Shown: positions 1 through 35,148 of the stretch, piece after piece | Numbering within the stretch: position 1 is the first letter of the stretch | How the letters are laid out: each line of letters starts with the position of its first letter | DNA from: Gammaproteobacteria bacterium TMED78 | GTDB taxonomy: Bacteria > Pseudomonadota > Gammaproteobacteria > Steroidobacterales > Rariloculaceae | Assembly (NCBI GenBank): GCA_002171615.1 | Contig: NHEF01000022.1 | Span: 1 to 35,417, forward strand | Length of the DNA stretch: 35,417 bases | Reading direction: 5' to 3' | Notes under the pieces: generated by a model | Told to the model about the DNA's origin: nothing | Seen by the model: the letters and a program-made list of their open reading frames with translations, nothing else | Databases searched by the model: none | Position numbers and translations under genes: made by a program

Positions 1-1
1 T

Positions 2-409
2 CAACAAGGTCAACAAGGTCAACAAGGTCAACAAGGCCAGCAAGGTCAACAAGGCATGCAAGGTCAACAAGGTCAACAAGGTCAACAAGGTCAACAAGGC
101 CAGCAAGGTCAACAAGGCATGCAAGGTCAACAAGGTCAACAAGGCCAACAAGGTCAACAAGGCATGCAAGGTCAACAAGGCCAACAAGGTCAACAAGGCA
201 TGCAAGGTCAACAAGGCCAGCAAGGTCAACAAGGCATGCAAGGCCAGCAGGGTCAACAAGGCATGCAAGGTCAACAAGGTCAACAAGGTCAACAAGGCAT
301 GCAAGGTCAACAAGGCATGCAAGGCCAGCAGGGTCAACAAGGCATGCAAGGTCAACAAGGCATGCAAGGTCAACAAGGTCAACAAGGCCAGCAAGGTCAA
401 CAAGGCCAG
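2..409 (+). repeat. In-frame 9-bp tandem repeat array
   Basis: About 45 copies of a 9-base unit close to CAACAAGGT, interspersed with GGCATGCAA-type variants, run from the window edge to about base 409. Variants differ mostly by silent changes (CAA/CAG, GGT/GGC), and methionine units recur at irregular spacing, giving a higher-order pattern. The array is clearly richer in G+C than the flanking DNA. It continues off the left edge, so its total length is unknown. Arrays like this tend to change copy number by slippage or recombination in whole codon units, so length could vary between strains. Confidence 0.95.
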
Positions 410-889
410 AGCCAGAATGGAAATTCATTACCTTCTCCAGATTCCAATATATTTGGAGAAGAAAGAGATGGATTATCTTCTTCAGGGCCTAGCTCAGAAG
501 ATGCTTTTGAGAGGTCATTAGAAGAGTTTGATTCTGTTGTGGGGGCAGAGAGAGAAGCAATAGCTCGTTCAGGAGTTGGCAGTGCTGCAGATGAAGCTTT
601 TGGAGCAGCTAGTTCAATAGGTAGTTCATCGGAGCCAGCTCAAGTACCAGTTGGAGTAGGAATGCCGGGAGTTAATCAAAGCACAAGAAGCGAATCAGAT
701 AACTCGCCTTCAGTAATTAGTAGTGGCATAAATGAAGAAAATAATATTGATTCCGTTGAAGGATGTGAGGATAAAGATGTAGTCGCTAGACAGCTATGTG
801 AGGCTGCCTCTCAAGAGGATGATCCATTTTTGAGAGCAGCTTTGTGGGATGAGTATAATGAATATAAGAAGATAATTTTAAGGCAGTAG
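2..889 (+). CDS. Collagen-like Gly-X-Y repeat protein, 5' partial
   Basis: The reading frame is open through the left edge of the window, so the N-terminus is missing. The first ~135 visible residues are an unbroken run of Gly-Gln-Gln and Gly-Met-Gln triplets, so glycine falls at every third position as in collagen-like proteins, but with no proline. A Ser/Glu-rich low-complexity linker follows, and then a compact C-terminal segment of about 40 residues with two cysteines, including VVARQLCEAA and LRAALWDEYNEYK. I recall similar 'VARQLREAA...LWDEY' tails in other proteobacterial proteins of unknown function, but cannot check this. The stop overlaps the next gene's GTG by one base (TAGTG), so it belongs to the same operon. 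Whether a signal peptide exists cannot be seen. The function is unknown; a fibrous or spacer role is inference. Confidence 0.75.
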   Translation, partial: QQGQQGQQGQQGQQGQQGMQGQQGQQGQQGQQGQQGQQGMQGQQGQQGQQGQQGMQGQQGQQGQQGMQGQQGQQGQQGMQGQQGQQGMQGQQGQQGQQGMQGQQGMQGQQGQQGMQGQQGMQGQQGQQGQQGQQGQSQNGNSLPSPDSNIFGEERDGLSSSGPSSEDAFERSLEEFDSVVGAEREAIARSGVGSAADEAFGAASSIGSSSEPAQVPVGVGMPGVNQSTRSESDNSPSVISSGINEENNIDSVEGCEDKDVVARQLCEAASQEDDPFLRAALWDEYNEYKKIILRQ

Positions 890-2130
890 TGGAAATGTTA
901 AAAAAAATAGTATTAATCAGTTTTGCTTTATTTTTATTTGCATGTGGGTCAAATGAGGTTCGAATGCCTCATCAAGTATCCTTAAGCTCTTCTACAAAAA
1001 CTATAAATGAAGTAGATTTATTAGATATTGCAGTTGTGTTATTTGATCCCGGTGTGCCCGAAGGAGAAATTGATAAAGATGTATTAGAAGACCTTATTAA
1101 TGATGGCACATTTGTTCACATCAGAAGAACAGAGTCTAGATATATGGCTATCCATTTAAGAGATACACTTCAGGATAGTGGTTTTTGGGGATCAGTTTGG
1201 GTTACACCTAATAGATCGTTAGTAGCAGATCTTGAAATAATGGGTCAGATATTACATTCAGATGGAGATAGTTTAAGTTTAGATATTCATGTTTTGGATG
1301 CCTCTGGTGAAACTTGGCTTGATAGAAATTATAAGATGTCAACAGCAGCAGGCTCATTCAATAGAAATCTTTATCCTAACAAAGATCCATATCAAGATGT
1401 GTTTAACAGGATTGCAAATGATCTAGCAAATATACAATCTAGACTTGATCCTGGGGAAGGACAAGAGCTTAGAACAATTTCTAAATTAAAATATGCCGAA
1501 GATATTAGCCCTGAGTCTTTCGATGGTTATTTAATTAGAAATAGAGATAGGATATCTCTAAATAGACTGCCAGCTGAAGATGATCCACAGTTTAGTAGAA
1601 CTCAGAGAGCTAGAGATAGGGAACATACATTTATTGAGGCTTTAAATGAACACTATGTTAATTTTTATAATCAATCTTCTGAGTCTTATGATGGATGGAG
1701 AGAATACTCTAGAGAGGAGTCAATAGCTATAAGAGAGCTAGAATCTTCAAGCAGATGGAGAACTGGCATTGGGGTGGCAACTATTATTGCTTCTATAGTT
1801 TATGATTCTAATAGCAATGGTGATTTTAATAGTAGAGTGGTAAGAGATACCATGATGTATACTGGTGTTGAGATGATTAAATCAGCAGGTGTCAGAAGAG
1901 AAGAGAAGCGTTTACATACTCAGTCTCTCGAAGAACTTTCGTTGAGTTTTGATGATGAGGTGATGCCAATGGTAGTAAATATAGAAGGAACTCAGCATCG
2001 TTTGACTGGAACTGCTGATGCTCAATATCTTGAATGGAAGGATATACTATTAGATTTGTATAGAACTGAGACTGGTTTCGTATCAGAGGTTGATATATTT
2101 ATTGATCCCCTAGAAGATTTTGAAGAATAA
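889..2130 (+). CDS. Outer-membrane-type lipoprotein of unknown family
   Basis: The 413-residue product starts with a lysine-containing n-region, a hydrophobic core and the lipobox LFAC, with lipidated Cys at residue 19 followed by Gly. There is no Asp at +2, which favours sorting to the outer membrane. An alpha/beta region of ~170 residues begins around DIAVVLFDPGVPEG, followed by a charged helical region and a short stretch rich in small and hydrophobic residues (GIGVATIIASIVYDS). I do not recognise the family. The GTG at 889 overlaps the previous stop; ATG at 895 is an alternative that keeps the signal peptide. The 3' end overlaps the next start by 11 bases, implying coupled translation. 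From its place in the operon, it is probably the outer-membrane partner of the ExbB/vWA apparatus; this is inference. Confidence 0.7.
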   Translation: MEMLKKIVLISFALFLFACGSNEVRMPHQVSLSSSTKTINEVDLLDIAVVLFDPGVPEGEIDKDVLEDLINDGTFVHIRRTESRYMAIHLRDTLQDSGFWGSVWVTPNRSLVADLEIMGQILHSDGDSLSLDIHVLDASGETWLDRNYKMSTAAGSFNRNLYPNKDPYQDVFNRIANDLANIQSRLDPGEGQELRTISKLKYAEDISPESFDGYLIRNRDRISLNRLPAEDDPQFSRTQRARDREHTFIEALNEHYVNFYNQSSESYDGWREYSREESIAIRELESSSRWRTGIGVATIIASIVYDSNSNGDFNSRVVRDTMMYTGVEMIKSAGVRREEKRLHTQSLEELSLSFDDEVMPMVVNIEGTQHRLTGTADAQYLEWKDILLDLYRTETGFVSEVDIFIDPLEDFEE

Positions 2131-3637
2131 ATCTGAAAAAAAAAACCTTCGTAATAAATCTATAATCGAAGTCAAGCCAAGTATAAGTAAAAATAATACC
2201 TCTATAGATGAAAATATTACTAATAAAAAAAATAACTATAATTTATTTTTATTTGCTTGCTTGATAGGTCTATTATTATTTGTTTTTTTCTTTTTACCTA
2301 GTTTTGTATCCCAAGAAAATTTTGTAGAAGAAACAAGCGCGGATCAAAGCGAGTTATATATTGGGCCAATAGAAAGTTCTGAGTATGATAATATCAGTCA
2401 AGAAGAGATTTCAGCGTTAAGATCAACCTCAGAGGATCTGCTTTCAGAAATTTTAACTCAACAAAGTCAAATTAATAATCTATCACCAAATATCTGGGCT
2501 AATGATAAGTGGCTAGTTTATCTTGATCAGATAAATTTCGGTGACGATGCATTCTTAAGTGAATCTTTCAAAGATTCTATTCGTTTCTATCAAGATGCTA
2601 TATTTCTAGGTAAGGAATTATTAGATATTTCAACTAGTATTGTTGAAGTATCTAATGACTATGGTAACAGGGCTTTAGCTACAGGCGATTACTTAGCAGC
2701 TATAGATCAATTTAATTTAGTTTTACAAATTGAGAAAGATAATGCTATTGCCATAGAGGGTTTGGGTAGGGCAGAGAATCTACCCGAAGTAATTAATATT
2801 ATGAGTGAAGCAAGAAGTAAGCAGCTAAGTCAGGAATATGAATTATCTATAAAGCTATATAGTCAAGTTCTTGAAATTGATCCTAAGTGGCAGGATGCAA
2901 AGAATGAGTTGAATCTTGTTATTGCAATTGTTGAAAAAAATAGCTTTGATAATTTTTTATCTAATGCATATACATCTTTAGGAGCTGGTGATTTTAATGA
3001 AGCAAATAATTTTTTTAATCAAGCTCTTTTATTGAGACCAGAGTCTGAAGAAGTAAAAAATGGTATTTTACAAGCTGAGCAGGGAGCAAAGTTTGATGCA
3101 GTTAGATTGTTTGAAGCTCGCGCTTTGGCGTTCGAGAAGAGAGAGTTATGGGAGCGTGTAATTGAGATTTATGAGGAAATTTTGACTACTGATCCTAATT
3201 TAGAGTTTGCAAAAGATGGGTTGCAGAGATCAAGATTAAGAGATGATCTTGATAAAAAAATTAATAATCTTATTGATAATCCAAGACTTCTTTTTGATGA
3301 TAACGTCTTAGATGATTCAGGATATATTTTATTACAAGCTCTAGAAATAGATCAGCCAGGTCCTAGGATTACTGAGCAACAAGAAAAATTAGAGAATATA
3401 ATTAGATTAGCATCTACACCAATAAATATAGTAATAAATTCTGATAATTTAACTGATATTGTTCTGTATCGTAAAGGATCTTTAGGTAAGTTTGATACTA
3501 AGACTATTGAGTTAAGGCCGGGTAATTATACTATTGTTGGTAATCGAAATGGATATAGAGATGTTAGATTAAATTTTGAAATATTGCCTGGTTTAGAAAA
3601 TATGAATATTGCAGTAGAGTGCAAGGAAAAAATTTAG
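2120..3637 (+). CDS. Membrane-anchored TPR protein with PEGA-like C-terminus
   Basis: The 505-residue product has a lysine- and asparagine-rich cytoplasmic N-terminus, one transmembrane helix at about residues 41-63, and a large region expected in the periplasm. That region has at least three TPR-like helical pairs, for example around YLAAIDQFNLVLQIEKDNA, YELSIKLYSQVLEIDP and FNEANNFFNQALLLRP. The last ~70 residues (from TPINIVINSDN to the end) are beta-rich, with LRPGNYTIVGNRNGYRDV resembling the 'G.Y.v...GY' signature of PEGA domains. The start is TTG inside the previous gene; no later start precedes the membrane helix, so I keep it. TPRs suggest a protein-binding scaffold. The family is not recognised beyond these domains. 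Confidence 0.75.
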   Translation: MKNKSEKKNLRNKSIIEVKPSISKNNTSIDENITNKKNNYNLFLFACLIGLLLFVFFFLPSFVSQENFVEETSADQSELYIGPIESSEYDNISQEEISALRSTSEDLLSEILTQQSQINNLSPNIWANDKWLVYLDQINFGDDAFLSESFKDSIRFYQDAIFLGKELLDISTSIVEVSNDYGNRALATGDYLAAIDQFNLVLQIEKDNAIAIEGLGRAENLPEVINIMSEARSKQLSQEYELSIKLYSQVLEIDPKWQDAKNELNLVIAIVEKNSFDNFLSNAYTSLGAGDFNEANNFFNQALLLRPESEEVKNGILQAEQGAKFDAVRLFEARALAFEKRELWERVIEIYEEILTTDPNLEFAKDGLQRSRLRDDLDKKINNLIDNPRLLFDDNVLDDSGYILLQALEIDQPGPRITEQQEKLENIIRLASTPINIVINSDNLTDIVLYRKGSLGKFDTKTIELRPGNYTIVGNRNGYRDVRLNFEILPGLENMNIAVECKEKI

Positions 3638-3646
3638 TTATTAATA

Positions 3647-6067
3647 ATGAATAATCAAATAGAAAAAAAATTAATATTACTCTATAAAGGAAAGACACTA
3701 AATTTTGATATTAATGATCTCCCAATTGAGATAGGAGATAAAAAATCTCATGATATTTATCTTCAAAATGTTATTGGGTTCTTTCAGATTGGCTTTATTG
3801 AAAATAAATTTTTTATACAGCCAAATAGTGAAACAAAGAATCTTTTTATTGGTGATGATGATATTCTAGAAACTAGATCTATTAAAGATAGGGATATATT
3901 TGTTTTTGGAAAAAATAAATTTTATGCATCGCTAGATAAAAATAATTTATATTTAGACTTAAGTACACCTAATTTTTATAAAAATACGATTAAAGAAGAA
4001 GAGAGTAAAAATAAAGTAGATGATATTGTAGTTGAGCCTATTAGTTTTAATTCAAGGATTGCTCAAATTAGTAATTCTAAAGATAGTAAAATTAATAAAT
4101 CTACTATTCCTATTTATTTTTCTTTTTTCGTCTTAGGCTGTTTGGCGTGGTTTGCGTTTACATCTAAGTCTATTGAGATAATTGTAGAGCCAGAAACAGA
4201 TTCTGTATCTATACCTGATACTTTTCTTAAATTAAAAATAGGTGATAGATATTTAGTTCAGCCTGGTATGCATAGGATTAAGGCTTCATTAGAAGAGTAT
4301 TATGATCTAGATACAGAAATACTTGTTAGTCAATCTCAGGACCAATCATTTTCTTTAAAATTGGATAGACTTCCTAATTTTATAAATTTTAGAACAAATC
4401 CAGAAATAGATTCAGTTATTAGTATAGATGGAAGCTTAATCGGTAATTCTCCTCTTACTGATATTGAAGTATCAATAGGTAAACATACTATAGAGATTAT
4501 TTCTCCAAGATATCTTACTAAGATCGAAGAGATACAAGTAGAAGGTGGTGGCTATAAACAAAATCTCACTTTTGATTTAGTACCTAACTGGTCAGAAATT
4601 CAGATAACAAGTGAGCCTAATGGTGCTAATGTAAACTTAGATGGCCAATCTATTGGCTTTACACCAATGGTTGCAGAGATCATTGCAGGTGAACATTCTC
4701 TTTCATTAAACTTAAATGGATATAATCAGTGGAGTAGTAAAATAATTGTGTCTGCTAATGATCCTCAGTCACTTCCACTAATTGAGCTAGAAGAGAGTGA
4801 TGGGGTGATGGAAATTACTTCTATACCTAGCGATGTTGCGATAAATTTAAATCAAAACTTTGTTGGGAGGTCCCCCTTAGTGCTTAATTTACCTCCAGAT
4901 AATAATTATGAAATATCACTAACTAAGCCAGGCTATAAAACTATTATTGATTCGGTATCTATTATTAGAGATGTTAATTCGAAATTATCTTATCAGTTAG
5001 AGCCTTTACTGGGAGTAGTATCAATTACTAGTTCACCTTCAGGTTCTCAAGTATGGATAAACGGTCTTAACGTAGGTGACACTCCAATAGAAATTGAATT
5101 GATGTCAATAGAGCAAAAAATTGAGGTAAGGAAAGAAGGATTTAGGTACGAGTTTATGGACTTAATACCAGTACCAAGCTATAAAAGTGATATTAACTTT
5201 AATCTTGAGGAGCTAAATCCTATTACTGGTTCTGGCTATGATAAACTCCTTACTACATCATTAGGACAAGAGTTAATTTTAATTCCTCCCCTAGAGTTTC
5301 AAATGGGTTCCTCAAGGAGAGAGCAAGGAAGAAGGTCAAATGAAGTTCTCCGCTCTGTTAAGGTCAGCAAGGCATTCTATTTAGGAACAAAAGAAGTTAC
5401 TAATTTTCAATATAGGCAATTTAGAGAAAACCATGACTCAGGCAATTTTTCAGATATTTCGTTAGATGAAGATAATTATCCAGTTGTTAGAATTACTTGG
5501 GAAGAGGCTGTAGAATTTCTTAATTGGTTAAGTATTAAGGATAATTTACAACCTGTTTATGAAGAGATGAATGGAATGTGGAAGGCAGTCATACCTTTAC
5601 GAAATGGTTATCGTCTCCCAACTGAAGCGGAATGGGCTTTAGCTGCAAAATTTTCTCAGTCTAATTCTGCTATTGTTTTTCCATGGGGGAATGATCTCCC
5701 TCCACCAGATAGATCTGGTAATTATGCGGATATTAGCGCCAATAAGCTTATTACACCTTTCTTAGTTACATATAATGATAGTTTTCAGGTTACAGCACCA
5801 TCTGGCAGTTTTCCTGCAAATAATTTTGGTATTTTTGATTTAGGAGGAAATGTTAGTGAGTGGATTCATGACTATTGGGAGATACCCGTCGCAAATAGTG
5901 AAAATGTTTATATTGACCCATTAGGCCCAGAAGAAGGACGTTTTCATGTTATAAGAGGATCTAGCTGGAAGAGCTCAACATTGACTGATTTAAGGCTTTC
6001 ATATAGATATTATGAAAATAATGATAGGGAAGATCTTGGTTTTAGGATAGCTCGTAATTTAGAATAA
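3647..6067 (+). CDS. FHA-like / TM / PEGA repeats / FGE-sulfatase-like domain protein
   Basis: The 806-residue product has an N-terminal ~110-residue beta-rich domain resembling FHA (weak), a membrane helix at about 154-172, then a series of PEGA-type repeats at about 244-313, 316-382, 387-452 and 456-520, with a degenerate one before them. Repeat signatures include NLDGQSIGFTP and WINGLNVGDTP. Residues ~535-805 form a formylglycine-generating-enzyme/SUMF1-like domain with FQMGSS, KEVTNFQYRQF, RLPTEAEWALAA, DLGGNVSEW, VIRGSSW and LGFRIAR. The two active-site cysteines of true formylglycine-generating enzymes are absent; the only cysteine in the whole protein is in the membrane helix. It is therefore probably a binding or structural domain. 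Topology places PEGA and the FGE-like domain in the periplasm. It lies 9 bases after the TPR gene. Confidence 0.85.
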   Translation: MNNQIEKKLILLYKGKTLNFDINDLPIEIGDKKSHDIYLQNVIGFFQIGFIENKFFIQPNSETKNLFIGDDDILETRSIKDRDIFVFGKNKFYASLDKNNLYLDLSTPNFYKNTIKEEESKNKVDDIVVEPISFNSRIAQISNSKDSKINKSTIPIYFSFFVLGCLAWFAFTSKSIEIIVEPETDSVSIPDTFLKLKIGDRYLVQPGMHRIKASLEEYYDLDTEILVSQSQDQSFSLKLDRLPNFINFRTNPEIDSVISIDGSLIGNSPLTDIEVSIGKHTIEIISPRYLTKIEEIQVEGGGYKQNLTFDLVPNWSEIQITSEPNGANVNLDGQSIGFTPMVAEIIAGEHSLSLNLNGYNQWSSKIIVSANDPQSLPLIELEESDGVMEITSIPSDVAINLNQNFVGRSPLVLNLPPDNNYEISLTKPGYKTIIDSVSIIRDVNSKLSYQLEPLLGVVSITSSPSGSQVWINGLNVGDTPIEIELMSIEQKIEVRKEGFRYEFMDLIPVPSYKSDINFNLEELNPITGSGYDKLLTTSLGQELILIPPLEFQMGSSRREQGRRSNEVLRSVKVSKAFYLGTKEVTNFQYRQFRENHDSGNFSDISLDEDNYPVVRITWEEAVEFLNWLSIKDNLQPVYEEMNGMWKAVIPLRNGYRLPTEAEWALAAKFSQSNSAIVFPWGNDLPPPDRSGNYADISANKLITPFLVTYNDSFQVTAPSGSFPANNFGIFDLGGNVSEWIHDYWEIPVANSENVYIDPLGPEEGRFHVIRGSSWKSSTLTDLRLSYRYYENNDREDLGFRIARNLE

Positions 6068-6100
6068 TAGATATAGATGGTTTATTCGAGGTATTGATAA

Positions 6101-6292
6101 ATGATTTTTAGATTTTATATATGTATTAGTTTTCTGACTTTATTTGTATCAGTATCATTTGGCCAAGATGATACAGATGACAGCCAGAAGATAGACTCTA
6201 CAGAAGTTGATACTAGACCTCTTGATGAAATTTTTATTCCTAGTGATGAAATAGCAGCTGATGAAGAAATTACTTTCCCTGTAAATATTTAG
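6101..6292 (+). CDS. Small secreted acidic peptide
   Basis: The 63-residue product has a clear signal peptide (MIFRFYICISFLTLFVSVSFG, cleavage near residues 21-22), leaving about 41 residues rich in Asp and Glu. The C-terminus (PSDEIAADEEITFPVNI) is distinctive; I recall short proteobacterial secreted proteins ending in a similar 'PSEEI..D....FPVDI' pattern, but cannot verify this. The gene sits between the FGE-like and ExbB-like genes with gaps of 33 and 16 bases, so it is very likely translated as part of the operon. There are no cysteines in the mature part. The function is unknown; a small periplasmic subunit or peptide ligand of the apparatus is possible. Confidence 0.7.
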   Translation: MIFRFYICISFLTLFVSVSFGQDDTDDSQKIDSTEVDTRPLDEIFIPSDEIAADEEITFPVNI

Positions 6293-6308
6293 ATTATTTG
6301 GAGATAAC

Positions 6309-7112
6309 ATGAAATTAAGATTACCAAATGAGTTTCTTTACCAAGTTTTTGCGCTAATAATTTCTATTATTATTATTCATGCCATATATGTCACTAATGT
6401 TAGGCCAAGGGCAGCTGATGCTTTATCAGAACAGGCTTTAGCTATACAGGAAGACCAAAATTATACTGTAGAGAGATCTGTTTGGGTTCTAATCAGAGAT
6501 TTTGAGCAGGAGGCATGCTTTATTTTGATGTTTTGGGCTTTTTCTATAATGGGCTATAAGACAGCTAGGCTTCTTAATGAGAAAAATATTTTAAGAGAAA
6601 GCTTGATTCCAATTAAGGATGGAGAAAGGATTTTGCCTGAAGATACTAGACAGTATTCAAGAATAATTGAATCATTACCAGATCAATCAAAAAATATGCT
6701 TTTACCCAGAGTTCTATTGTCATCTTTAGAGCGCTTTGGATCAACTAAGAATGTTCAAGATGTTTCATCTGTAGCTAATACCTTGTGTGAGTCTGAGGGT
6801 GAAAAGTTAGAATCTGAATTATCAATGATTAGATATATTGCTTGGGCTATCCCTTCTGTAGGATTTATTGGAACCGTAAGAGGAATAGGAGAGGCTCTTG
6901 GTCAGGCACATAGAGCAGTTGATGGTGATATTGCCGGAGTTACTCAGAGTCTAGGGACTGCCTTTAATTCAACCTTTATTGCTTTATTGATTTCGATAGT
7001 AGTAATGTTTTTAGTACATCAATTACAGTCTTTACAAGAGCGGCTTATTTTTGATACCCAGTCTTATATTGATCATAAGGTAATACGACATATGCATTCC
7101 CAAAATAATTAA
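6309..7112 (+). CDS. ExbB/TolQ/MotA-like proton channel subunit
   Basis: The 267-residue inner membrane protein has four predicted membrane segments: about 10-29, 68-84, 175-197 and 219-238. Between segments 2 and 3 lies a cytoplasmic domain. The third helix carries the family pattern AIPSVGFIGTVRGIGEAL (compare 'P.LGLLGTV.G' in ExbB/TolQ) and the fourth has LGTAFNSTFIALLISI (compare the 'L..AL..T..GL..AIP' signature). ExbB, TolQ and MotA form pentamers around a dimer of ExbD, TolR or MotB and convert proton (or sodium) flow into mechanical work. No separate exbD or tolR gene follows; the partners are probably the two vWA proteins downstream, whose N-terminal helix is ExbD-like. An upstream sequence TTGGAGATAACATG gives a good ribosome binding site. 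Confidence 0.88.
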   Translation: MKLRLPNEFLYQVFALIISIIIIHAIYVTNVRPRAADALSEQALAIQEDQNYTVERSVWVLIRDFEQEACFILMFWAFSIMGYKTARLLNEKNILRESLIPIKDGERILPEDTRQYSRIIESLPDQSKNMLLPRVLLSSLERFGSTKNVQDVSSVANTLCESEGEKLESELSMIRYIAWAIPSVGFIGTVRGIGEALGQAHRAVDGDIAGVTQSLGTAFNSTFIALLISIVVMFLVHQLQSLQERLIFDTQSYIDHKVIRHMHSQNN

Positions 7113-7121
7113 AGTATAGAT

Positions 7122-8168
7122 GTGAAAAACATAGCTATTCATATAAATGACTCAAATATTATAGTTGCTGATAATACTAAAATTATTGGGAATGAGCCTG
7201 GATATGCTCTATTGGATCATGACAAAGTTATTACTGGATTAGATGCTTATAGAAAGAAAAGCTTTTCTTCTCATCTTATTTTTAATACTTATTGGGAAAA
7301 TTTAAGCTTAGATAAAGACTCAAGTTTAGAGAGGCTAGGGAGCGTTTCTAGTTTTGCTGAAATAGCTTATATGCAATTAAATAATATATGCAGAAAATAT
7401 ATTAATTCGGGGGAAAGCGTTATTCTTATTCCTCCTACTAGTTATGACAGTCATAAATTAGGATTGTTATTAGGTATAGCAAATGAATGTAAAATTAATA
7501 TAGTCGGTATGGTAAATCCTGCATTGATGATATCTAGGGAACTGTATAAAGAAAATCAGTTATTTTATTTAGATATTGGATTAAATCATTTTTCTATATC
7601 ATCAGTGATTGATAGTTATTTAAAAAGAGATGTGATAGAAAGTAAATCTATTCAGGCGCTTGGAACAGATGACTTAGAAAAAGCTTGGTGTAACAGGATA
7701 GCAGAGATATTTATATTAAAGACGCGTTTCGATCCATTACATTCAGCTAATAGCGAGTTTGATCTTCAAAAAGCCTTGCCTAATTGGCTTAAGTTATTAG
7801 ATGAAGATGATTATTTAGAGCTAGAGTTGCCTCATGGTGGACAAAAATTATCTATCGAAATACATAGGGATCAGCTATTGAATGCAGCTTCTAATTTTTA
7901 TAGCTCAATTACAGATCTATTAAATAGTTTTTTTATGAAGTCTTCTAAGAAAAAACAAATATTTATTTCAAGTAGTTTATCTAGCGTCCCAGGTCTCTAT
8001 AGGTTGCTAGAAAATATAGACGATATTTTTATTAATACCGGTAACTTTGGTTATGAAGCTTTAAGTTCTTTACATTTCTTCGAACAAGGTTTATTTGATT
8101 TTTCTGACAATGATGTAAAGCTATTAAATATGATTGATTTTAATAAAAAAATTAAATTAAAGGGATAA
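7122..8168 (+). CDS. Actin/Hsp70-like ATPase-fold protein (putative)
   Basis: This 348-residue soluble protein has no signal peptide or membrane helix. The N-terminus (IAIHINDSNIIVADNTKIIG) fits the first phosphate strand-turn-strand of the actin/Hsp70 fold with the usual Asp replaced. YLDIGLNHFSISSV fits the second phosphate motif, and IFISSSLSSVPGLYRLLENI fits the adenosine motif near the C-terminus. The GTG start at 7122 lies 9 bases after the ExbB-like gene, and the stop is 3 bases before the next start. A cytoplasmic actin-like protein inside a channel/vWA operon suggests ATP-dependent control or assembly of the machine, by inference. The assignment rests on motif spacing only, and nucleotide binding may be degenerate. 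Confidence 0.6.
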   Translation: MKNIAIHINDSNIIVADNTKIIGNEPGYALLDHDKVITGLDAYRKKSFSSHLIFNTYWENLSLDKDSSLERLGSVSSFAEIAYMQLNNICRKYINSGESVILIPPTSYDSHKLGLLLGIANECKINIVGMVNPALMISRELYKENQLFYLDIGLNHFSISSVIDSYLKRDVIESKSIQALGTDDLEKAWCNRIAEIFILKTRFDPLHSANSEFDLQKALPNWLKLLDEDDYLELELPHGGQKLSIEIHRDQLLNAASNFYSSITDLLNSFFMKSSKKKQIFISSSLSSVPGLYRLLENIDDIFINTGNFGYEALSSLHFFEQGLFDFSDNDVKLLNMIDFNKKIKLKG

Positions 8169-8171
8169 GTT

Positions 8172-9263
8172 TTGCCAAGAAAGAGATTGAATGTTTTTTC
8201 ATTATCATTTCTAGATGCCATGACATGTGGCTTTGGTGCCGTCATTCTTTTTTTTATGATTATAAACGCTAATGTTGATCTAAGAAGCGAAACCCTTTTA
8301 AATGATAGAGCAAGTGAAGTTGATAGAATGGAGCTAAGAGTTTTAACTGGAAAGAATAATTTGCTCGAGATAAGGCAAGATCTCTCAAGACTTATTGAAG
8401 AGTGGGCAGTACTTAGAGGCTTGAAAGAAGAGATTGTTTCTGAGGTTAATATTACACAAGAAGAGTTTGCTAAGTTAACTCTAGAGAGTTCTAGCCAAGA
8501 AGATTTAATTAGTGATTTAAATATAGAACTTGAAGTACTAGAAGAAGAATCTAAAAGACTTTCTGCTTCAAGTATTAGCCCAACAGAGGCTGGTAATAGA
8601 ATAAGAAGCTTTGATGGAAATGGTAATAGACAATATCTTACTGGGCTTAGAATGGGTGGTGATAGGATTGTAATTTTAGTTGATGCTTCTACAAGTATGC
8701 TTGATAGGACAATAGTTAATATCTTGAGAAGACGAAATATGACTAAAGATCAGCAATTAGTTGCACCAAAGTGGCAGCAGGTAGTTCAAACTCTTAACTG
8801 GCTGACAACACAAATACCTCCCGGAACAAAATTTCAAATTTTTGCTTTTAATGATAAAGGCTGGTCTTTAATTGAGGACACTGATACCGAATGGCTAACC
8901 GTTACCGATGGAAGCAAATTAGAAGAGGCAGTGAATAGGTTATCTTTAACAGTGCCAGAAGGGCCTACAAGCTTACATGCAGCTTTTTCTATGATTCGAC
9001 CTCTAGAACCAAAGCCAGATAATATCTATCTTTTGGTAGATGGATTGCCAACTATGGGGGAAATTGAGCCTACTCGCGCAGGCGTTACTGGCAGGGAGAG
9101 GCAGAGCCATTTTAATCGTGCTGCAAGACAATTGCCATTCAACGTACCTGTTAATGTAATACTTTATGCTATGGAAGGAGATCCTCAGGCAGCTCCAGCT
9201 TACTGGTGGATGGCACTAAATACTGGTGGATCATTGATTGCACCATCTGAGGATTGGCCATGA
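8172..9263 (+). CDS. ExbD-like helix fused to coiled coil and vWA domain (paralogue 1)
   Basis: The 363-residue product has a short basic N-terminus, one membrane helix at about 10-32 (SLSFLDAMTCGFGAVILFFM), a charged coiled coil at about 40-135, and a von Willebrand factor A domain from about 165. The MIDAS motif is present as DASTS at 171-175, with a later Thr in GPTSLHAAF and an Asp in YLLVDGLP. Asp15 occupies the place held by the proton-carrying Asp of ExbD and TolR ('TPFIDV...' followed by hydrophobics). The start must be TTG at 8172, since the conserved SLSFLD motif begins only nine residues later and no ATG precedes it. It pairs with the next gene, which shares the same layout, and the ends overlap by 4 bases (ATGA). 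Confidence 0.85.
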   Translation: MPRKRLNVFSLSFLDAMTCGFGAVILFFMIINANVDLRSETLLNDRASEVDRMELRVLTGKNNLLEIRQDLSRLIEEWAVLRGLKEEIVSEVNITQEEFAKLTLESSSQEDLISDLNIELEVLEEESKRLSASSISPTEAGNRIRSFDGNGNRQYLTGLRMGGDRIVILVDASTSMLDRTIVNILRRRNMTKDQQLVAPKWQQVVQTLNWLTTQIPPGTKFQIFAFNDKGWSLIEDTDTEWLTVTDGSKLEEAVNRLSLTVPEGPTSLHAAFSMIRPLEPKPDNIYLLVDGLPTMGEIEPTRAGVTGRERQSHFNRAARQLPFNVPVNVILYAMEGDPQAAPAYWWMALNTGGSLIAPSEDWP

Positions 9264-10267
9264 AAAAGAAGCAGAAAAGAGAAGTTGATTCTGGTAGCTT
9301 GTCGTTCCTAGATGTAATTTGTTGTGGCTTTGGTGCTGTTATTCTTTTGTTGGTTTTAACTAAGATATTTGAGCCAATTAGGTTGGAAGAGAGTCATTTT
9401 GAACTAGAAGGACTTATATCAAGGTATGAACAAGAGCTAGAGGAGGTTATTGAGGAAATAGAACTTGTGCAACAAGAAATAATAGATACCACTAATAAAG
9501 TTGAGTTAGATCAACTTCAAATAACCGAACTTCAAGATCAATTGGTCCGCATAAGAGCAGATTTTTTAGCTACTCAGGATGATGCAGAAGAGTCTTCAGA
9601 TCTTGCTGGAAAACTTGCCCTTGCTAAACAAAGGCTAACCGAAGAAATGCAAAGACTTCTTTCAGATTACAAGCCAGATCCAGAGGATTATGTTGTTGGA
9701 GGAATTCCCGTTGATAGTGAATATATTATTTTTATAATTGATACTTCTGGAAGCATGCAAAGATATGCTTGGCCAAGAGTGCAACAGCAAATAAGAGAGA
9801 CGCTTGAGGTTTATCCAGAGGTGAAGGGAATACAAGTCTTTAATGACATGGGCGAATATATGTTTAAGAGTTATAGAAATGAATGGATTCCAGATTCTCA
9901 GGCTAGGCGTGAAGCTATAATAGATGGATTAAAAAATTGGACTGCTTTTTCAAACTCAAGCCCAAGGGAAGGAATTATTGAGGCTATTAGATCTTATTAT
10001 GATCCCGATAAAAAAATTAGTCTATATGTGTATAGTGATGATTTTGCCTCAGGGTCGATTAATGCCGTAGTTAGAGAGGTAGACAGGAGGAATAAGTTAG
10101 ATGAGGATGGACAGAGAAGAGTAAGGATTCATGCTGTTGCGTTTCCTGTTTATTATGAGGTTACTAATGGTGAGCTTTTATCATCAGCAAGATTTGCTAT
10201 TTTGATGAGAGCTCTATGCCAAAGGAATGGAGGAACATTTGTTGCCCTTCCTTCTTTGAGAGGATAA
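9260..10267 (+). CDS. ExbD-like helix fused to coiled coil and vWA domain (paralogue 2)
   Basis: The 335-residue product is a paralogue of the preceding protein. It has basic residues 1-8, a membrane helix at about 13-36 (SLSFLDVICCGFGAVILLLVL) with Asp18 in the ExbD/TolR position, a long acidic coiled coil at about 40-135, and a vWA domain from about 155 with MIDAS DTSGS at 161-165. The third metal-ligand region is SDDFASGS. The MIDAS Thr is less obvious than in paralogue 1 (SNSSPREG at that place). I choose ATG at 9260, which overlaps the upstream TGA, over an in-frame TTG two codons earlier. Two different ExbD-like subunits fit the dimer needed inside an ExbB-type pentamer. It is the last gene of the operon; the next gene is on the opposite strand 7 bases away. 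Confidence 0.87.
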   Translation: MKKKQKREVDSGSLSFLDVICCGFGAVILLLVLTKIFEPIRLEESHFELEGLISRYEQELEEVIEEIELVQQEIIDTTNKVELDQLQITELQDQLVRIRADFLATQDDAEESSDLAGKLALAKQRLTEEMQRLLSDYKPDPEDYVVGGIPVDSEYIIFIIDTSGSMQRYAWPRVQQQIRETLEVYPEVKGIQVFNDMGEYMFKSYRNEWIPDSQARREAIIDGLKNWTAFSNSSPREGIIEAIRSYYDPDKKISLYVYSDDFASGSINAVVREVDRRNKLDEDGQRRVRIHAVAFPVYYEVTNGELLSSARFAILMRALCQRNGGTFVALPSLRG

Positions 10268-12103: not shown

Positions 12104-13451
12104 TCAAATAATATCATTTAAGAGTTGCTTATATTTCTGATGTAGCATATCTAAGTTTTTTTTAGTTTCAATATTAAGTCTAATGAGAGGCTCTGTATTT
12201 GATGATCTTAAATTGAACCTCCAGTCTTTAAACTCTAAACTTAATCCATCAATTTTATTAATAGATAAAGCATCAGATGAGTATTTTTTTTCTATAAAAT
12301 TAAACACTCTTGATGTATCTTCAACTTTAAGGTTTATTTCTCCACTAGTAGGATATAAATTTATTCTTTCTTTTACTAGTTCAGAAAGTTTTTTTCCATT
12401 AGAGCTCATTATTTGTGCAATAATTAACCAAGGTATCATACCACTATCACAATAATAAAAGTCTTTGAAATAGTGATGAGCACTGATTTCACCACCATAA
12501 ATAGCATCACAGTCTCTCATTTTTTGCTTTATAAATGCATGGCCGGACTTACATTGAATTGCCTTCCCTTTATTTTTTTTAATAATTTCCAATGTATTCC
12601 ATATTAATCTAGGATCATAGATAATATTACTATCAGGTTTTTTGTTTAAAAAAAATTCTGACAATAGTCCAACAATATAGTAGCTATCAATAAATTTCCC
12701 ATTTTCATCAAAGAAAAAACATCGATCATGATCTGCATCCCATGCAATACCAAGATCTGCCTTTGATTGAAGTACTGCATTAGATGTAGGAAGCCTATTC
12801 TTTTCTATCATCGGATTAGGCACATCATTTGGAAAATTTCCATCAGGATTATGATTGATTTTAATAAATTCAAAGGGCAAGCTACCTTCTAGAATATCAA
12901 CTATTGGTCCTGCTACTCCATTTCCAGCGTTAACAACTATCTTAATTGGTTTTAGTAAGTCAATATCTATGAAGGATAAAACTTTATTAATATATTGATT
13001 TTTATAATTAGCTTTATAAACGACACCTTTTTTGCTTTTGTGAGGAAATATTTTTTTTTCTGCGATTTTTTTTTATTTCTTTTAAGCCTGTATCTTCACT
13101 TATTGGCTTCGATTGCTTTATTAAAAGTTTCATCCCATTATAATCTTTGGGATTGTGACTTGCTGTTACCATAATGCCACCATCAAAGTTTCCATAACTA
13201 GTTGAGAAGCTTACAACCTCAGTACCTACGATACCTATATCAGTTACATCTGATTCAGAGTCAGTAATTCCCTGTATGACTGCATCTTTAATTTTTTGGC
13301 TTGAGAGCCTTATATCCATTCCTATGACCACATTTTTAGCTCTTGAAAATTCTATAAATCCTCTAGATATAAAATATGCAATTTCTTCATTAAGCTCATC
13401 TGGAAAAGAGCCTCTAATATCATAAGCCTTAAAACAATTTATTTTTAGCAT
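12104..13451 (-). pseudogene. manB: Phosphomannomutase (CpsG/ManB type), frameshifted
   Basis: This is an alpha-D-phosphohexomutase converting mannose 6-phosphate to mannose 1-phosphate for GDP-mannose supply. The catalytic serine motif TASHNP (Ser98), metal loop DADHDRCF, sugar loop GGEISAHH and phosphate loop RSSNTEPLIRLN are all present, and the order matches E. coli CpsG closely. The frame breaks after GLKEIKK: an A9 run (plus-strand T9 at 13066-13074) is one base too long. Removing one base gives GLKEIKKIAEKKIFP, matching CpsG 'SGLRDIQRLAEANDFP', and restores about 448 residues (CpsG is 456). The pieces are 13014-13451 and the frame ending at 12104. With no other lesion, this may be an assembly error, a very recent mutation, or slippage during expression. 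Confidence 0.88.
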
Positions 13452-18428: not shown

Positions 18429-19682
18429 ATGAAACAAGAAATGTTAGAAATAGGTAGGTTAGCAAAAGAGGCAAGTAGTATTCTTGGAAGAACCTCAACG
18501 AAATTGAAAAATCAGGCCTTGAGGGATTCAGCAAGTATAATAAGAGGGTCTAAAGGTGAAATATTAGAATCAAATAATATAGATATTGATCAAGCAAGAA
18601 AGAACAAGCTTTCTGAAGCAATGATTGATAGATTGGTTCTTGATGATGATAGAGTTGAAGGTATAGCTTCTAGTTTGGAACAAATATCAAATTTTGAAGA
18701 TCCAATTGGTAAAATAATCAATGAAATAGAGAGGCCAAATGGTTTATTGATACAAAAAGTTAAAGTTCCATTAGGGGTGATAGGTATTATTTATGAAAGT
18801 CGACCAAATGTTACCGCTGATGCTGGTGCGTTATGTCTTAAAAGTGGAAATGCAGTAATATTAAGAGGCGGGACAGAATCAGTTAACTCAAATAAAATTA
18901 TTCATTCTTGTCTAATTAAGGGGCTTCAAAATACCGGGTTACCACACACTTCTATTCAGATGGTTCCTACTCAAGATCGCAAAGCAGTAGGGATTCTTCT
19001 CCGTGATATGACTAGTTATGTAGATATTATAATACCAAGAGGAGGAAAAAATCTTATAGCTCGTATTCAAGAAGATGCAAGAGTTCCAGTTATTGGGCAT
19101 CTTGAGGGCATATGTCATACATATGTTCATCAGAATGCAGACCTAAATATGGCAAAAAAAATTATATTAAACGCTAAGATGAGACGAACTGGTATATGTG
19201 GTGCTACTGAGACTATTTTGATTGATAAATCTATAGCTTCTAAATTTGTAACTCCTATTCTAGATATTCTTATTAGCAACGGATGTGAAGTAAGAGGCAG
19301 TAAAGATATCATAAACTTAGATGCTCGAGCCATTATTGCAAAGGATTCAGATTGGGGAAAAGAGTTTTTGGATGCGATAATTGCAATTAGGCTTGTTGAG
19401 GATATCGATGAAGCTTTAAGTTATATTAGGGAATATGGATCTGGACATACCGAATCAATTGTAAGTAATGACCAGCAAGCAGCAGATAAATTTTTAGCAG
19501 AGTTAGATAGTTCAATTGTAATGCACAATACTTCTACACAGTTCGCTGATGGAGGTGAATTTGGAATGGGAGCAGAAATAGGTATAGCTACTGGAAGGAT
19601 TCACGCTCGAGGCCCAGTTGGTTCAGAAGAGCTTACAAGCTATAAATATATCGTTAGGGGAAAAGGCCAGATAAGAGCTTAG
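18429..19682 (+). CDS. proA: Gamma-glutamyl phosphate reductase ProA
   Basis: The 417-residue NADPH-dependent aldehyde-dehydrogenase-fold enzyme reduces glutamyl 5-phosphate to the semialdehyde. Motifs include VPLGVIGIIYESRPNVTADAGALCLKSGNA, the nucleotide region PRGGKNLI, the catalytic cysteine in RRTGICGATET, and the C-terminal RIHARGPVGSEELTSYKY. I use ATG at 18429, which aligns with the usual N-terminus (MKQEMLEIGRLAKEAS); an in-frame TTG at 18417 overlapping the proB stop is possible. The 3' end overlaps the convergent neighbour's stop by 4 bases. Confidence 0.95.
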   Translation: MKQEMLEIGRLAKEASSILGRTSTKLKNQALRDSASIIRGSKGEILESNNIDIDQARKNKLSEAMIDRLVLDDDRVEGIASSLEQISNFEDPIGKIINEIERPNGLLIQKVKVPLGVIGIIYESRPNVTADAGALCLKSGNAVILRGGTESVNSNKIIHSCLIKGLQNTGLPHTSIQMVPTQDRKAVGILLRDMTSYVDIIIPRGGKNLIARIQEDARVPVIGHLEGICHTYVHQNADLNMAKKIILNAKMRRTGICGATETILIDKSIASKFVTPILDILISNGCEVRGSKDIINLDARAIIAKDSDWGKEFLDAIIAIRLVEDIDEALSYIREYGSGHTESIVSNDQQAADKFLAELDSSIVMHNTSTQFADGGEFGMGAEIGIATGRIHARGPVGSEELTSYKYIVRGKGQIRA

Positions 19683-21070
19683 TTTTCCCCCCAAGGTCTA
19701 ATAGCCTGTTTTAGCTTCTTATAGCCATCTAAAAAGTTAGGTCTATTCGCAGAATATATATTGTCAAATGTATTTATAGCGTTATCAAACCATTTGCGAA
19801 GCTCTTCATTACCAGGGTTAGCATCAATATAGGCATCTCTAATTAATACAAAGTGAATGCGAGGGTCATATGGTTGCTTGGTTCCGCCAAGTGATTCATC
19901 ACCATCTAGAAGCCTAAGCAGCATAGCATCAGCAGAACCAAGCGTTTGCTCATGGATAGGAGGGCCTTCCATTCTATACATGACAGAGGTCATATCTCTA
20001 CCGTTACCTGTTACATAACCCATTTCGCTCCAAATATAGTTCATTTTAGCTTCAGAAGTAATTTTATGCTTCTTATCCATATGATCGATTACTTTTTGGC
20101 CAAATGCTCTTAGCGGGTCAGAGACGTCTGCTAGAAGGTCTGTTAATCTATCGCCATCTAAATCAGTAGCAAGAACAATAACATCATTTTTTTCAATTAG
20201 GTCCCAAAGAAGCAAACCATAGTTTGTATCTGCAATATGTTGCTCGATCTTGCCACCCCAGTTTTCCATACCATCTTTAAAATTAGTAGGGAGGAGTGCG
20301 ATTACTCTATTAACAAGCTCTTTGTGTTCTTTATAACCATCAACTGCATATTTTCTACCTACTTCAAATTTTGTTCCTTCTAGCATCCATGAGAGTATTC
20401 CAGAGTTAATTCCATCCTCCATTGCCTGAGTTGGTTTGAATGCCACTCTACCTAGTTTACCTGTTTCATGAACCATTTTTAAAAACCTTCTATTCGCATA
20501 TGCCATTTGAAGTGCTGGAGTATTCATTTCTGAGTGGATGATCCCACTATTTTTATCAACATTAAAAACTGTTTTATCTTGAGAATAAGGAAGGCATGGC
20601 ATACATCGAACTACTGTAATTGGACCATATGGCCTAACGTTACAATACACCCCAGCTTGAGTCCTTAATGGGGCATTACCAGATTTACCCATGACTACAA
20701 CTTTTTCTCCACTATCATCTTTTACGTATGCATCACCCGCTGTTGACCATTTAATTGATGTGCAAGGCATATTGCCAAACCATGAAAGTGATTTGAGCTT
20801 AGTATCATGTCTATATTGCGACCACATCGGTACTGCATAGTATGGAAGATTTAGTATATCAATAGCTGCAATAGTACCCAATAAAGCGTAGGCGTCAGTA
20901 AGTGAGTGTGCAACTGGATTTATTTTTTTCTCATGATTGCCACCCATCCATACAACTGCATCAGGGCATCCATCTGGTTTTATATCTGCATCTCTAAATA
21001 GTTGTTTTAGCTCGGAAAAAAGGTCTCCATTGGTAGCTTCAGTTTGAGCAATTTTCAAAAGATCTATCAT
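19679..21070 (-). CDS. Conserved-looking 463-residue protein of unknown family
   Basis: I do not recognise this family. The protein appears soluble: no signal peptide or membrane helix is evident. It has well-formed alternating hydrophobic and charged segments, and several motif-like stretches: GCPDAVVWMGGNHEKKINP near residue 34, a Trp-rich MWSQYRHDTKLKSLSWFGNMPC, VVRCMPCLPYSQD with a CxxC, and VIVLATDLDGDRLTDLLADV. The CxxC and additional Cys (GCPD, MPC, VYC) could bind metal or form a redox site; this is speculation. Start at ATG 21070 is preceded by AGTGGGGAT. The coding region looks richer in G+C than its neighbours, which could mean high expression or a different origin. It is monocistronic, with a possible promoter upstream and convergent overlap with proA. 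Confidence 0.75.
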   Translation of the reverse strand: MIDLLKIAQTEATNGDLFSELKQLFRDADIKPDGCPDAVVWMGGNHEKKINPVAHSLTDAYALLGTIAAIDILNLPYYAVPMWSQYRHDTKLKSLSWFGNMPCTSIKWSTAGDAYVKDDSGEKVVVMGKSGNAPLRTQAGVYCNVRPYGPITVVRCMPCLPYSQDKTVFNVDKNSGIIHSEMNTPALQMAYANRRFLKMVHETGKLGRVAFKPTQAMEDGINSGILSWMLEGTKFEVGRKYAVDGYKEHKELVNRVIALLPTNFKDGMENWGGKIEQHIADTNYGLLLWDLIEKNDVIVLATDLDGDRLTDLLADVSDPLRAFGQKVIDHMDKKHKITSEAKMNYIWSEMGYVTGNGRDMTSVMYRMEGPPIHEQTLGSADAMLLRLLDGDESLGGTKQPYDPRIHFVLIRDAYIDANPGNEELRKWFDNAINTFDNIYSANRPNFLDGYKKLKQAIRPWGEN

Positions 21071-28812: not shown

Positions 28813-28842
28813 TAGGTGTTTATATCACTTAAGAAGTTAAAT

Positions 28843-29808
28843 ATGAAGGCATCTTTTAAGGCCAAAGCAAATATTGCACTAATAAAGTATTGGGGGAAGA
28901 CAAATAGAGAGCTTAATTTACCAGCAGTAGGATCAATTTCTATAACTTTAGATTCTTTATGGTCTGATACCGAAGTAGTTTTTGATGAAAGTCTAGAAAG
29001 AGATTTTTTATATATCAATGGAGAGGATTTTTCTAATCCTATAGATAGGATTAAGAGCTGTTTAGATTTAATTAGGAAAGAGGCAAAGGTAGATTTTTTT
29101 GCTAAGATTATAAGCAAGAATAATTTTCCTACAGCTTCAGGTCTAGCTTCTTCTGCATCAGGATTAGCTGCAATTGTTTTAGCGGCATCTAAAGCTCTTA
29201 ATCTTGAACTTAGCCCAAGGAAGCTAAGTATAATTGCTAGGCATGGCTCAGGATCGGCAGCCAGATCAATTTACAGTGGGTTTGTTGAAATGTTTGTAGG
29301 TAAAAACTCTGATGGGAGCGATAGCTTTGCAAAGCAAATTGCACCAGCATCTCATTGGCCCTTAGAAGTTGTTATTGCTGTTACTGATACAAAAAAGAAA
29401 GAAATAGGTTCTAGAGCTGCAATGGAGTTATCAGCCTTAACTTCTCCTTTTTATAATGAATGGATAAAAAGTAGTGTATCTGATCTTGCTATTGCAAGAG
29501 ATGCTATTATGAATAAAGATTTTGAGAGCTTATCTTCAATTACTCAAAGTAATTGTATAAAAATGCATTCTGTAATCATGACTAGTAACCCACCAGTACT
29601 TTATTGGAATCAGGCAACATTGGCCTGTATAAAAATGATTATGGATTTACAAAAATCAGGAGTACCTGTCTTTTTTACAGTAGATGCAGGTCCTCAGGTT
29701 AAGGCAATATGTAAACCAGAGAGTACTGTTATGATTTCTGATCTATTAAAAAAAATCCCAGGAGTTAAAAAAATGATTATTTCTACAATTGATAACTCTT
29801 TAGTTTAG
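28843..29808 (+). CDS. mvaD: Diphosphomevalonate decarboxylase MvaD
   Basis: The 321-residue GHMP-fold enzyme converts mevalonate 5-diphosphate to isopentenyl diphosphate with ATP. Evidence is the family N-terminus KANIALIKYWGK (residues 8-19), the phosphate loop ASGLASSASGLAA (98-110), GSGSAARSIYSGFVEM, and the catalytic Asp region FTVDAGPQVKAIC. I choose ATG at 28843, which gives the usual 'MKA..KA.ANIALIKYWGK' start; a GTG at 28816 would add nine residues without family support. It is first of four co-directional mevalonate genes and is 6 bases from the next. Confidence 0.95.
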   Translation: MKASFKAKANIALIKYWGKTNRELNLPAVGSISITLDSLWSDTEVVFDESLERDFLYINGEDFSNPIDRIKSCLDLIRKEAKVDFFAKIISKNNFPTASGLASSASGLAAIVLAASKALNLELSPRKLSIIARHGSGSAARSIYSGFVEMFVGKNSDGSDSFAKQIAPASHWPLEVVIAVTDTKKKEIGSRAAMELSALTSPFYNEWIKSSVSDLAIARDAIMNKDFESLSSITQSNCIKMHSVIMTSNPPVLYWNQATLACIKMIMDLQKSGVPVFFTVDAGPQVKAICKPESTVMISDLLKKIPGVKKMIISTIDNSLV

Positions 29809-29814
29809 GTACGT

Positions 29815-30783
29815 ATGAAATATATTTCCTCGGCACCTGGAAAAGTAATTGTATTAGGAGAGTATGCTGTATTGGCAGGAAAGCCAGCAATAGCTTTTGC
29901 AGTAAATAGGAGAGTAATTGCAGAGGCTAGTTTCATAGAAGGCAATAATTGCTATCTAGAAACTGTTATGCCTAATTTAGATAACAATAGTTTTAAATTA
30001 GGAGATAGGTCAGGCTTAGCATTAGTTGATCTAGTTATTAGTCAGTTTTGGCAGAGTAAAAAACAAGCTTGGAGCGGTAAGATAGATTCGTCAGAGTTAT
30101 ATTTTCATGAAAATAAACTAGGGCTAGGATCAAGTTCAGCAGTATTGCTAGCTTGGGCTAAAATTTTTTTAAATGAATTATCTTTAAGAGAATTAATAAC
30201 TATACATAGGAACTTCCAAAATAATTTAGGTAGTGGAATAGATTTAGCTGTTAGTAAGTATGGAGGCATTATAGTATTTAAAAATTGTCAAGATAATGAA
30301 GCTGAAGTTGATTCAGTCAAGTTTCCATCGGGTATCTTCTTTAGTATTATTTATACTGGAGTCCCAGTATTAACAAAATCTTTTATAATCAATTTTAATC
30401 AATGGAAGGCTAATAATAAAAAAAAATACAGTGAAAGAATTACTTCTTTAGGTGATATAATTGAAAAATGCTGTTCGGCAATTAGAGAGAATGACGTAAA
30501 AAATTTTCTTCAAGCAATAAGTTTGTACAATTCTGAATTAGACAATCTTGGGAGTGAGGCAGGAATAAATATTGTTAGTAAAGAGCATCGCGATATACTT
30601 GTTACTGCTAAGAAATATGATTTAGATTATAAGGTTAGTGGAAGTGGTGGTGGAGATATAGGTATAGTTTTTTCTGATGATAAAGAGGCTTTAGAGAAAT
30701 TTAATTTAGATGTTGGAGAGAAGTATAAAATAATTAATCTAGAAGTAGATTATAAAGGGCTTGATTATATGGAGCATGATTAG
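29815..30783 (+). CDS. mvaK2: Phosphomevalonate kinase (GHMP family)
   Basis: The 322-residue GHMP kinase starts SSAPGKVIVLGEYAVLAGKPAIAFAV, the hallmark of phosphomevalonate kinases, and has the ATP loop LGLGSSSAVLLAW (102-114), GSGIDLAVSKYGG and the C-terminal motif KVSGSGGGDIGIVF. It phosphorylates mevalonate 5-phosphate to the diphosphate. Assignment between mevalonate kinase and phosphomevalonate kinase is supported by the presence of a separate mevalonate kinase domain in the next gene and of MvaD. The stop overlaps the next GTG by one base. Confidence 0.88.
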   Translation: MKYISSAPGKVIVLGEYAVLAGKPAIAFAVNRRVIAEASFIEGNNCYLETVMPNLDNNSFKLGDRSGLALVDLVISQFWQSKKQAWSGKIDSSELYFHENKLGLGSSSAVLLAWAKIFLNELSLRELITIHRNFQNNLGSGIDLAVSKYGGIIVFKNCQDNEAEVDSVKFPSGIFFSIIYTGVPVLTKSFIINFNQWKANNKKKYSERITSLGDIIEKCCSAIRENDVKNFLQAISLYNSELDNLGSEAGINIVSKEHRDILVTAKKYDLDYKVSGSGGGDIGIVFSDDKEALEKFNLDVGEKYKIINLEVDYKGLDYMEHD

Positions 30784-35060: not shown

Positions 35061-35148
35061 ATTTTCCTTATAAGTCAATTGTGTTCATTTTATATCTTTT
35101 CAATTGATTCTGGTATTATTTTTATTTCTTAGTAGATTACAACTCTTT

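Follow-up and report, generated by a model that had tools for sequence, protein, structure and literature searches.

A conserved operon in Gammaproteobacteria bacterium TMED78 that probably encodes an ion-powered trans-envelope machine with a paired vWA rotor

The present study analyzes a nine-gene operon at the start of contig NHEF01000022.1 (here C4) of Gammaproteobacteria bacterium TMED78; the window, i.e. the whole stretch of DNA analyzed, is the first 35,417 bases of that contig, in a genome of 1.57 Mb that is 98.8% complete. The operon (genes 1 to 9, Table 1) probably encodes a single machine that spans the envelope and is powered by ion flow, in which an ExbB-like channel (gene 6) and two vWA proteins (vWA1 and vWA2, genes 8 and 9) would form a 5:2 motor with the vWA heterodimer as its rotor. 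A little less confidently, we consider it a machine in its own right, comparable in rank to Tol-Pal or to the motor of the type IX secretion system (T9SS), present in several phyla and characterized by the vWA-heterodimer rotor, a fixed set of partners, and optional control by a pseudo-actin, FHA domains, a kinase, and a phosphatase. This account is drawn from the genes and from models of single proteins, and its 5:2 complex follows the AlphaFold 3 (AF3) model of the same type of pair in a published article (PMC12204202).

Gene 6 matches MotA_ExbB (PF01618) at 1.8e-14, with 54.0 bits against a curated cut-off of 22.9 (55.9 bits in the genome search); comparison of the ExbB family profile with solved structures gave no sequence match at E 1e-3. 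Across 32 sequences Thr189 and Thr222 show no variation; they align with the GTVWG and IATAM motifs of the genome's own TolQ, and so with the TolQ pore threonines of the two pore-lining helices, as in the MotA/TolQ/ExbB family. Both vWA proteins begin with a transpore helix, SFLDxxxCGFGA, and continue through a coiled coil into a vWA domain that is weakly matched, albeit recognizable, and that retains the DxSxS start of the metal ion-dependent adhesion site (MIDAS). The Asp of the helix occupies the position of the proton-binding Asp in ExbD, TolR, and MotB. Its conservation in the vWA alignment is partly by construction because the motif by which rows were chosen includes the Asp; F[LI]D is likewise found at that position in the divergent L134 pair and in vWA1 proteins that the motif had skipped. 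Pore threonines and vWA helix residues rank among the most conserved positions. Profile searches matched PF01618 four times in the genome and ExbD three times, the ExbD matches lying at a tolQ-tolR locus (contig C28) and an exbB-exbB-exbD-exbD locus (C25), leaving gene 6 as the sole ExbB-type gene without an ExbD neighbor. As all three ExbD/TolR genes adjoin other ExbB/TolQ genes, the vWA pair is the natural partner of gene 6. The preliminary description had proposed an ExbB-like channel with the ExbD-like vWA pair as its likely inner dimer, and its reading as a single machine was to be abandoned if the channel paired with a conventional exbD or tolR; no such pairing was found, and the Pfam cut-off, the pore threonines, and the helix Asp all support the proposal.

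It had also been proposed that the genes, if one machine, would be conserved together across genomes, and this is what was observed. A scan of public genomes with the ExbB-like protein found 276 relatives, 80 of which were kept; family models recovered the operon in most of these, and the gene order recurs in Gammaproteobacteria, Desulfobacterota, Kiritimatiellia, and other groups. In 30 uncut related loci with enough flank, the genes were on one strand in every case, with ExbB, the FGE protein, and the peptide present in all 30, the TPR protein in 29, two vWA genes in 28, gene 1 and the gene 2 lipoprotein in 27 each, and the actin-like gene in 20. An even draw of 229 genomes from the class contained the lipoprotein in 15 genomes, the ExbB-type protein in 16, and vWA2 in 14; lipoprotein and ExbB-type protein were found together in 14 genomes, and all 14 genomes with vWA2 had ExbB (hypergeometric p 2e-19 and 1e-20). 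An alternative explanation could be that envelope genes are neighbors here by chance and that the ExbB-like protein serves an ordinary ExbD or TolR. ExbB detached from the cluster in genome G213, and a decaying copy of the cluster in G185 (L096), with broken lipoprotein frames and no ExbB, would be consistent with this, but the conserved order, strand, and co-occurrence across phyla contradict it, as do the adjacent ExbD-type partners of the other three ExbB/TolQ-family genes, and we find it hardly credible.

Several observations nevertheless weigh against a single nine-part machine. In G213 ExbB is on another contig altogether, and in G091 it is shifted to the end of the operon. The actin-like gene is absent from about a third of loci, so that not all nine genes are core. 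The predicted fold of gene 2 resembles TolB-N/LptE weakly (best E 1.3e-3, TM score about 0.2) and was not used as evidence. A second group, outside the class, has the order gene 1 ("collagen"), lipoprotein, TPR, FGE, ExbB, vWA1, vWA2 with no actin-like gene, which marks the seven-gene core. The loci with displaced ExbB (L092 and L135, from G091 and G213) belong to one family, and G213 has no lipoprotein match.

If the operon does encode one machine, a single helix each from vWA1 and vWA2 would be enclosed by five ExbB-like subunits (5:2), and proton passage would turn the vWA heterodimer. The coiled coils would pass this motion to the vWA heads. The targets of the heads would be the TPR protein, the PEGA/FGE protein of the periplasm, and the two lipoproteins, both probably located in the outer membrane; in this way force might reach that membrane, as it does in Tol-Pal or the T9SS/gliding motor. 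On the cytoplasmic side, a scaffold would be formed by the FHA-like domain of gene 4 and the pseudo-actin, which has its own FHA domain in most relatives possessing it, and could plausibly be phospho-switched where a Ser/Thr kinase or PP2C gene adjoins the operon. In the lineage of the window the scaffold is probably constitutive, because no Ser/Thr kinase is detectable and the FHA domain has been lost. The task at the outer membrane would most likely be stabilization, by analogy with Tol, with adhesion or surface-protein export possible. From the earlier proposal of a single machine, the co-conserved operon and the channel with its vWA pair stand, whereas the collagen feature is unconserved and the FGE domain non-catalytic; that the envelope is acted on mechanically we still infer.

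Gene 4 matches Pfam PEGA at 5.2e-47 and FGE at 6.5e-39, and profile comparison of its N-terminal domain with the FHA domain of the actin-like family (hhalign E 5e-5, probability 67%) supports its reading as FHA-like, in agreement with the FHA-like/PEGA/FGE-like protein first described; Pfam likewise confirms the ExbB call and that of TPR in gene 3 (6.4e-10). The degenerate FHA-like domain is predicted to be cytoplasmic, with one membrane helix, five PEGA stretches, and the FGE domain following. The catalytic cysteine pair of formylglycine-generating enzyme was looked for in the aligned FGE domains and was not found: the C-terminal active-site region has no cysteine in the 12 sequences shown, and cysteines per domain numbered 0 or 1 in 52/62 aligned sequences and 3 or 4 in 10/62. 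Because the active-site region lacks this pair, the domain is, judging by sequence, non-catalytic, and a role as sulfatase-modifying enzyme was rejected.

TagR of the type VI secretion system (T6SS) Tag/PpkA/Fha pathway is likewise FGE-like. It interacts with the C-terminal part of PpkA, which bears an extracellular vWA domain (PMC3224232), and by analogy this may serve as a precedent for functional contact between FGE and vWA domains. It is also the model for a second alternative, namely that the operon encodes an envelope sensor comparable to TagR acting on PpkA upstream of the P. aeruginosa H1-T6SS, in which the vWA and FGE domains would engage either ligands or one another, the channel would sense membrane energization, and output would pass through FHA, kinase, and PP2C proteins. 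Retention of the MIDAS starts, the FHA domains, the Ser/Thr kinase or PP2C genes of relatives, and the TagR-PpkA interaction itself would all fit, and kinase, PP2C phosphatase, FHA, and vWA occur together in the T6SS pathway as well. However, no T6SS genes are found here and vWA is on the motor proteins rather than on a kinase; the kinase and phosphatase occur in some lineages only; this genome keeps the motor genes without Pkinase; and the high conservation of pore and helix residues points to a motor. The sensor is thus unlikely.

No Pfam model matches gene 7, the actin-like protein. Its AlphaFold2 model (predicted local distance difference test, pLDDT, 92.7) matches Hsp70 nucleotide-binding domains (Foldseek E 9.6e-17, probability 1.00), and there is a profile match to Ssb1 (E 1.6e-4). 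In the family alignment, judged by eye, INDAG, GLHR, and LSxRL replace DLGTT, GGGT, and GG, and the phosphate-1, phosphate-2, and adenosine glycine motifs of ASKHA ATPases were not found. The first assignment as actin-like therefore holds for the Hsp70/actin fold but not for the nucleotide motifs, and an actin-like filament or ATPase was rejected. Degeneration of these motifs makes a scaffold role more likely, and the product is probably a nucleotide-independent scaffold, by analogy with PilM and GspL, which have actin-like domains. Apparent ExbB-actin fusions in long frames were explained by an N run (L010), a change of frame within exbB (L077), and open frames running upstream (L011, L014). 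A C-terminal FHA domain is recognizable in 26/42 aligned actin-like members, and within the order nearly all full-length matches extend through the FHA region; the window copy ends at model position 332 of 454 with the FHA domain absent. In about a dozen close relatives the lipoprotein and TPR genes are separated by a gene for a Ser/Thr kinase (PF00069, 8e-27 in L006), and a PP2C phosphatase lies upstream in one locus that is more distant. A search of the TMED78 genome for Pkinase gave no match, and the close relatives L004 and L012 have no space for the kinase gene, with the FHA motif of L012 also degenerate. A link between loss of the kinase and loss of FHA is suggestive only, because joint loss was seen in few lineages. 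Close relatives (L004 10851-11582 and equivalents) also have, downstream of vWA2, a Gly-zipper OmpA protein absent from the window, whose best NCBIfam match is PdsO (2.4e-36, below cut-off).

The window begins at the contig end, within gene 1. Contig C8 matches window 302-2107 at 99.4% and holds the missing start with a lipobox, VILGC, by which gene 1 is a lipoprotein. The repeats that prompted its description as a collagen-like protein are real (Pfam 3.8e-24) but form a GQQ/GMQ linker of variable length, with GQQ repeat number differing even between C4 and C8. The conserved part is a C-terminal motif, VARQLxEAAxxExDPxLRxxLWxEYxxYK; distant relatives are not collagen-like and retain this and an FD motif alone, and a collagen adhesin was rejected. 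Directly upstream of gene 1 on C8, in the same direction (L090 1960-2589, minus strand), is a secreted 210-aa protein with no Pfam match, which is not a recurrent neighbor among relatives. Gene 2 matches no Pfam model, and its predicted structure has a long helical hairpin around residues 233-356; its lipobox, FACG, bears out the lipoprotein already noted in the operon, to which gene 1 adds a second. The gene 5 peptide has a C-terminus of the type FxPSxxIxADxxVxFPVDI, conserved among relatives.

These features bear on a third alternative, energized export or assembly, in which the motor would drive display of the Gly/Gln-rich gene 1 lipoprotein or the FPVDI-tailed peptide in the manner of the GldLM motor and GldK ring. 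The C-terminal motifs conserved in genes 1 and 5 might act in targeting, there are two lipoproteins in the operon, and the best NCBIfam match of the FGE protein is GldK (2.1e-32). That match, however, reaches 112.9 bits against a cut-off of 350, no Pfam or NCBIfam match to GldL, GldM, or GldN was found among window proteins, and the operon has no outer-membrane beta-barrel or translocon, all of which leave this explanation quite unlikely. On the Gld results membership in T9SS/gliding systems was also rejected. Gliding/T9SS machinery (GldKLMN, GldJ, PorE) does resemble the proposed machine in combining a motor with TPR and inactive FGE/SUMF1-like proteins, together with carboxypeptidase-regulatory-like domains (PMC9127263), but in the operon the FGE protein carries PEGA and belongs to the inner membrane instead of being a lipoprotein.

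Comparison with other systems supports the earlier statement that the operon has no TonB, Pal, flagellar, or Zorya module. Tol-Pal shares a TolQ-family motor and, through its TolB N-terminal domain, the weak fold match of gene 2, but TolA, TolR, and Pal are absent from the operon, and the genome has a separate tolQ-tolR-TolA-like-TolB-like locus on C28; Tol-Pal membership was rejected on this basis, as was TonB membership when tested. Zorya ZorAB likewise has a MotA/ExbB-family channel with an Asp-bearing partner, but in the operon the partner has vWA. Of the Zorya set (ZorA/B plus ZorC/D or ZorE), marginal ZorA matches alone were obtained (PADLOC E 0.0019, NCBIfam E 0.01), and no further Zorya model matched among window proteins. 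The closest likeness is in Williams-Jones et al. 2025 (PMC12204202), which describes TolQ homologues with heterologous vWA pairs bearing Asp in a transpore helix (TPH) and with no tolR or exbD, and which modeled TolQ and TPH-vWA pairs together in AF3 as direct rotors. As there (Fig. 4c-d, with an Idiomarina example), the operon has a TolQ-like gene, two differing vWA genes with an Asp-bearing transpore helix, and no syntenic tolR/exbD, the published family being wide in Proteobacteria. The section text and figure legend on this family name no lipoprotein, FGE/PEGA, TPR, peptide, pseudo-actin-FHA, kinase, or phosphatase, and our search, which left out preprints and most subscription papers, found no further published description of the partner set. 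The machine had been called undescribed; this is not so for the TolQ and vWA-pair core, already predicted in print because that article described and modeled such pairs, while for the rest no description was found. The operon is thus an apparently undescribed, fuller version of a motor class predicted in 2025, and not wholly unknown.

The nine open reading frames were recovered as co-directional and closely packed, as first described, spanning 2-10267, with neighboring frames overlapping by at most 11 bases or lying at most 33 bases apart, and a convergent bioD is next after gene 9.

Table 1. Genes of the operon, with positions in the window.
Gene	Product	Position	Strand	Remarks
1	Lipoprotein with collagen-like linker	2..889	+	5' end on contig C8 (L090:1222-1893, MYKNIYLVLFICLFVILGC)
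2	Lipoprotein, lipobox FACG	889..2130	+	Start probably ATG at 895, not GTG at 889
3	TPR protein, inner-membrane-anchored	2120..3637	+	Single N-terminal transmembrane segment, 42-60
4	Degenerate FHA-like domain, transmembrane segment (153-171), PEGA x5, FGE/SUMF1-like domain (non-catalytic by sequence)	3647..6067	+	
5	Secreted 63-aa peptide, conserved C-terminal tail	6101..6292	+	
6	ExbB/TolQ/MotA-family channel subunit, four hydrophobic segments	6309..7112	+	
7	Hsp70/actin-fold (ASKHA) protein, degenerate nucleotide motifs, no FHA domain	7122..8168	+	
8	vWA1: ExbD-like transpore helix, coiled coil, vWA	8172..9263	+	
9	vWA2: ExbD-like transpore helix, coiled coil, vWA	9254..10267	+	Start probably ATG at 9260

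Elsewhere in the window, a phosphomannomutase/phosphoglucomutase lies in two frames (12104-13451, minus strand; domain I at 13017-13451, domains II-IV at 12107-12880), a split that reflects a frameshift or assembly error, relatives such as L012 having a single 465-aa frame. A 463-aa protein with no Pfam match at 1e-3 (19679-21070, minus strand) adjoins proline-biosynthesis genes. A mevalonate-pathway cluster (28816-35078) includes a 755-aa frame (30783-33050, plus strand) that joins HMG-CoA reductase (PF00368, 1.2e-109) to a GHMP (mevalonate-type) kinase, as well as diphosphomevalonate decarboxylase, a NUDIX protein (likely IDI), and HMG-CoA synthase.

The finding has several implications. First, this motor family is best known from Ton, Tol, Mot, Gld, and Zorya, and the operon, which occurs together with partners of its own in other phyla and in roughly 6% of the genomes drawn evenly from the class, would add another proton-driven envelope process. 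Secondly, the optional kinase/FHA layer suggests regulated assembly, and that layer seems dispensable because a streamlined genome without a detectable Ser/Thr kinase or pseudo-actin FHA domain keeps the operon. Finally, the list of partners turns a published motor prediction of "function unknown" into a concrete set of proteins.

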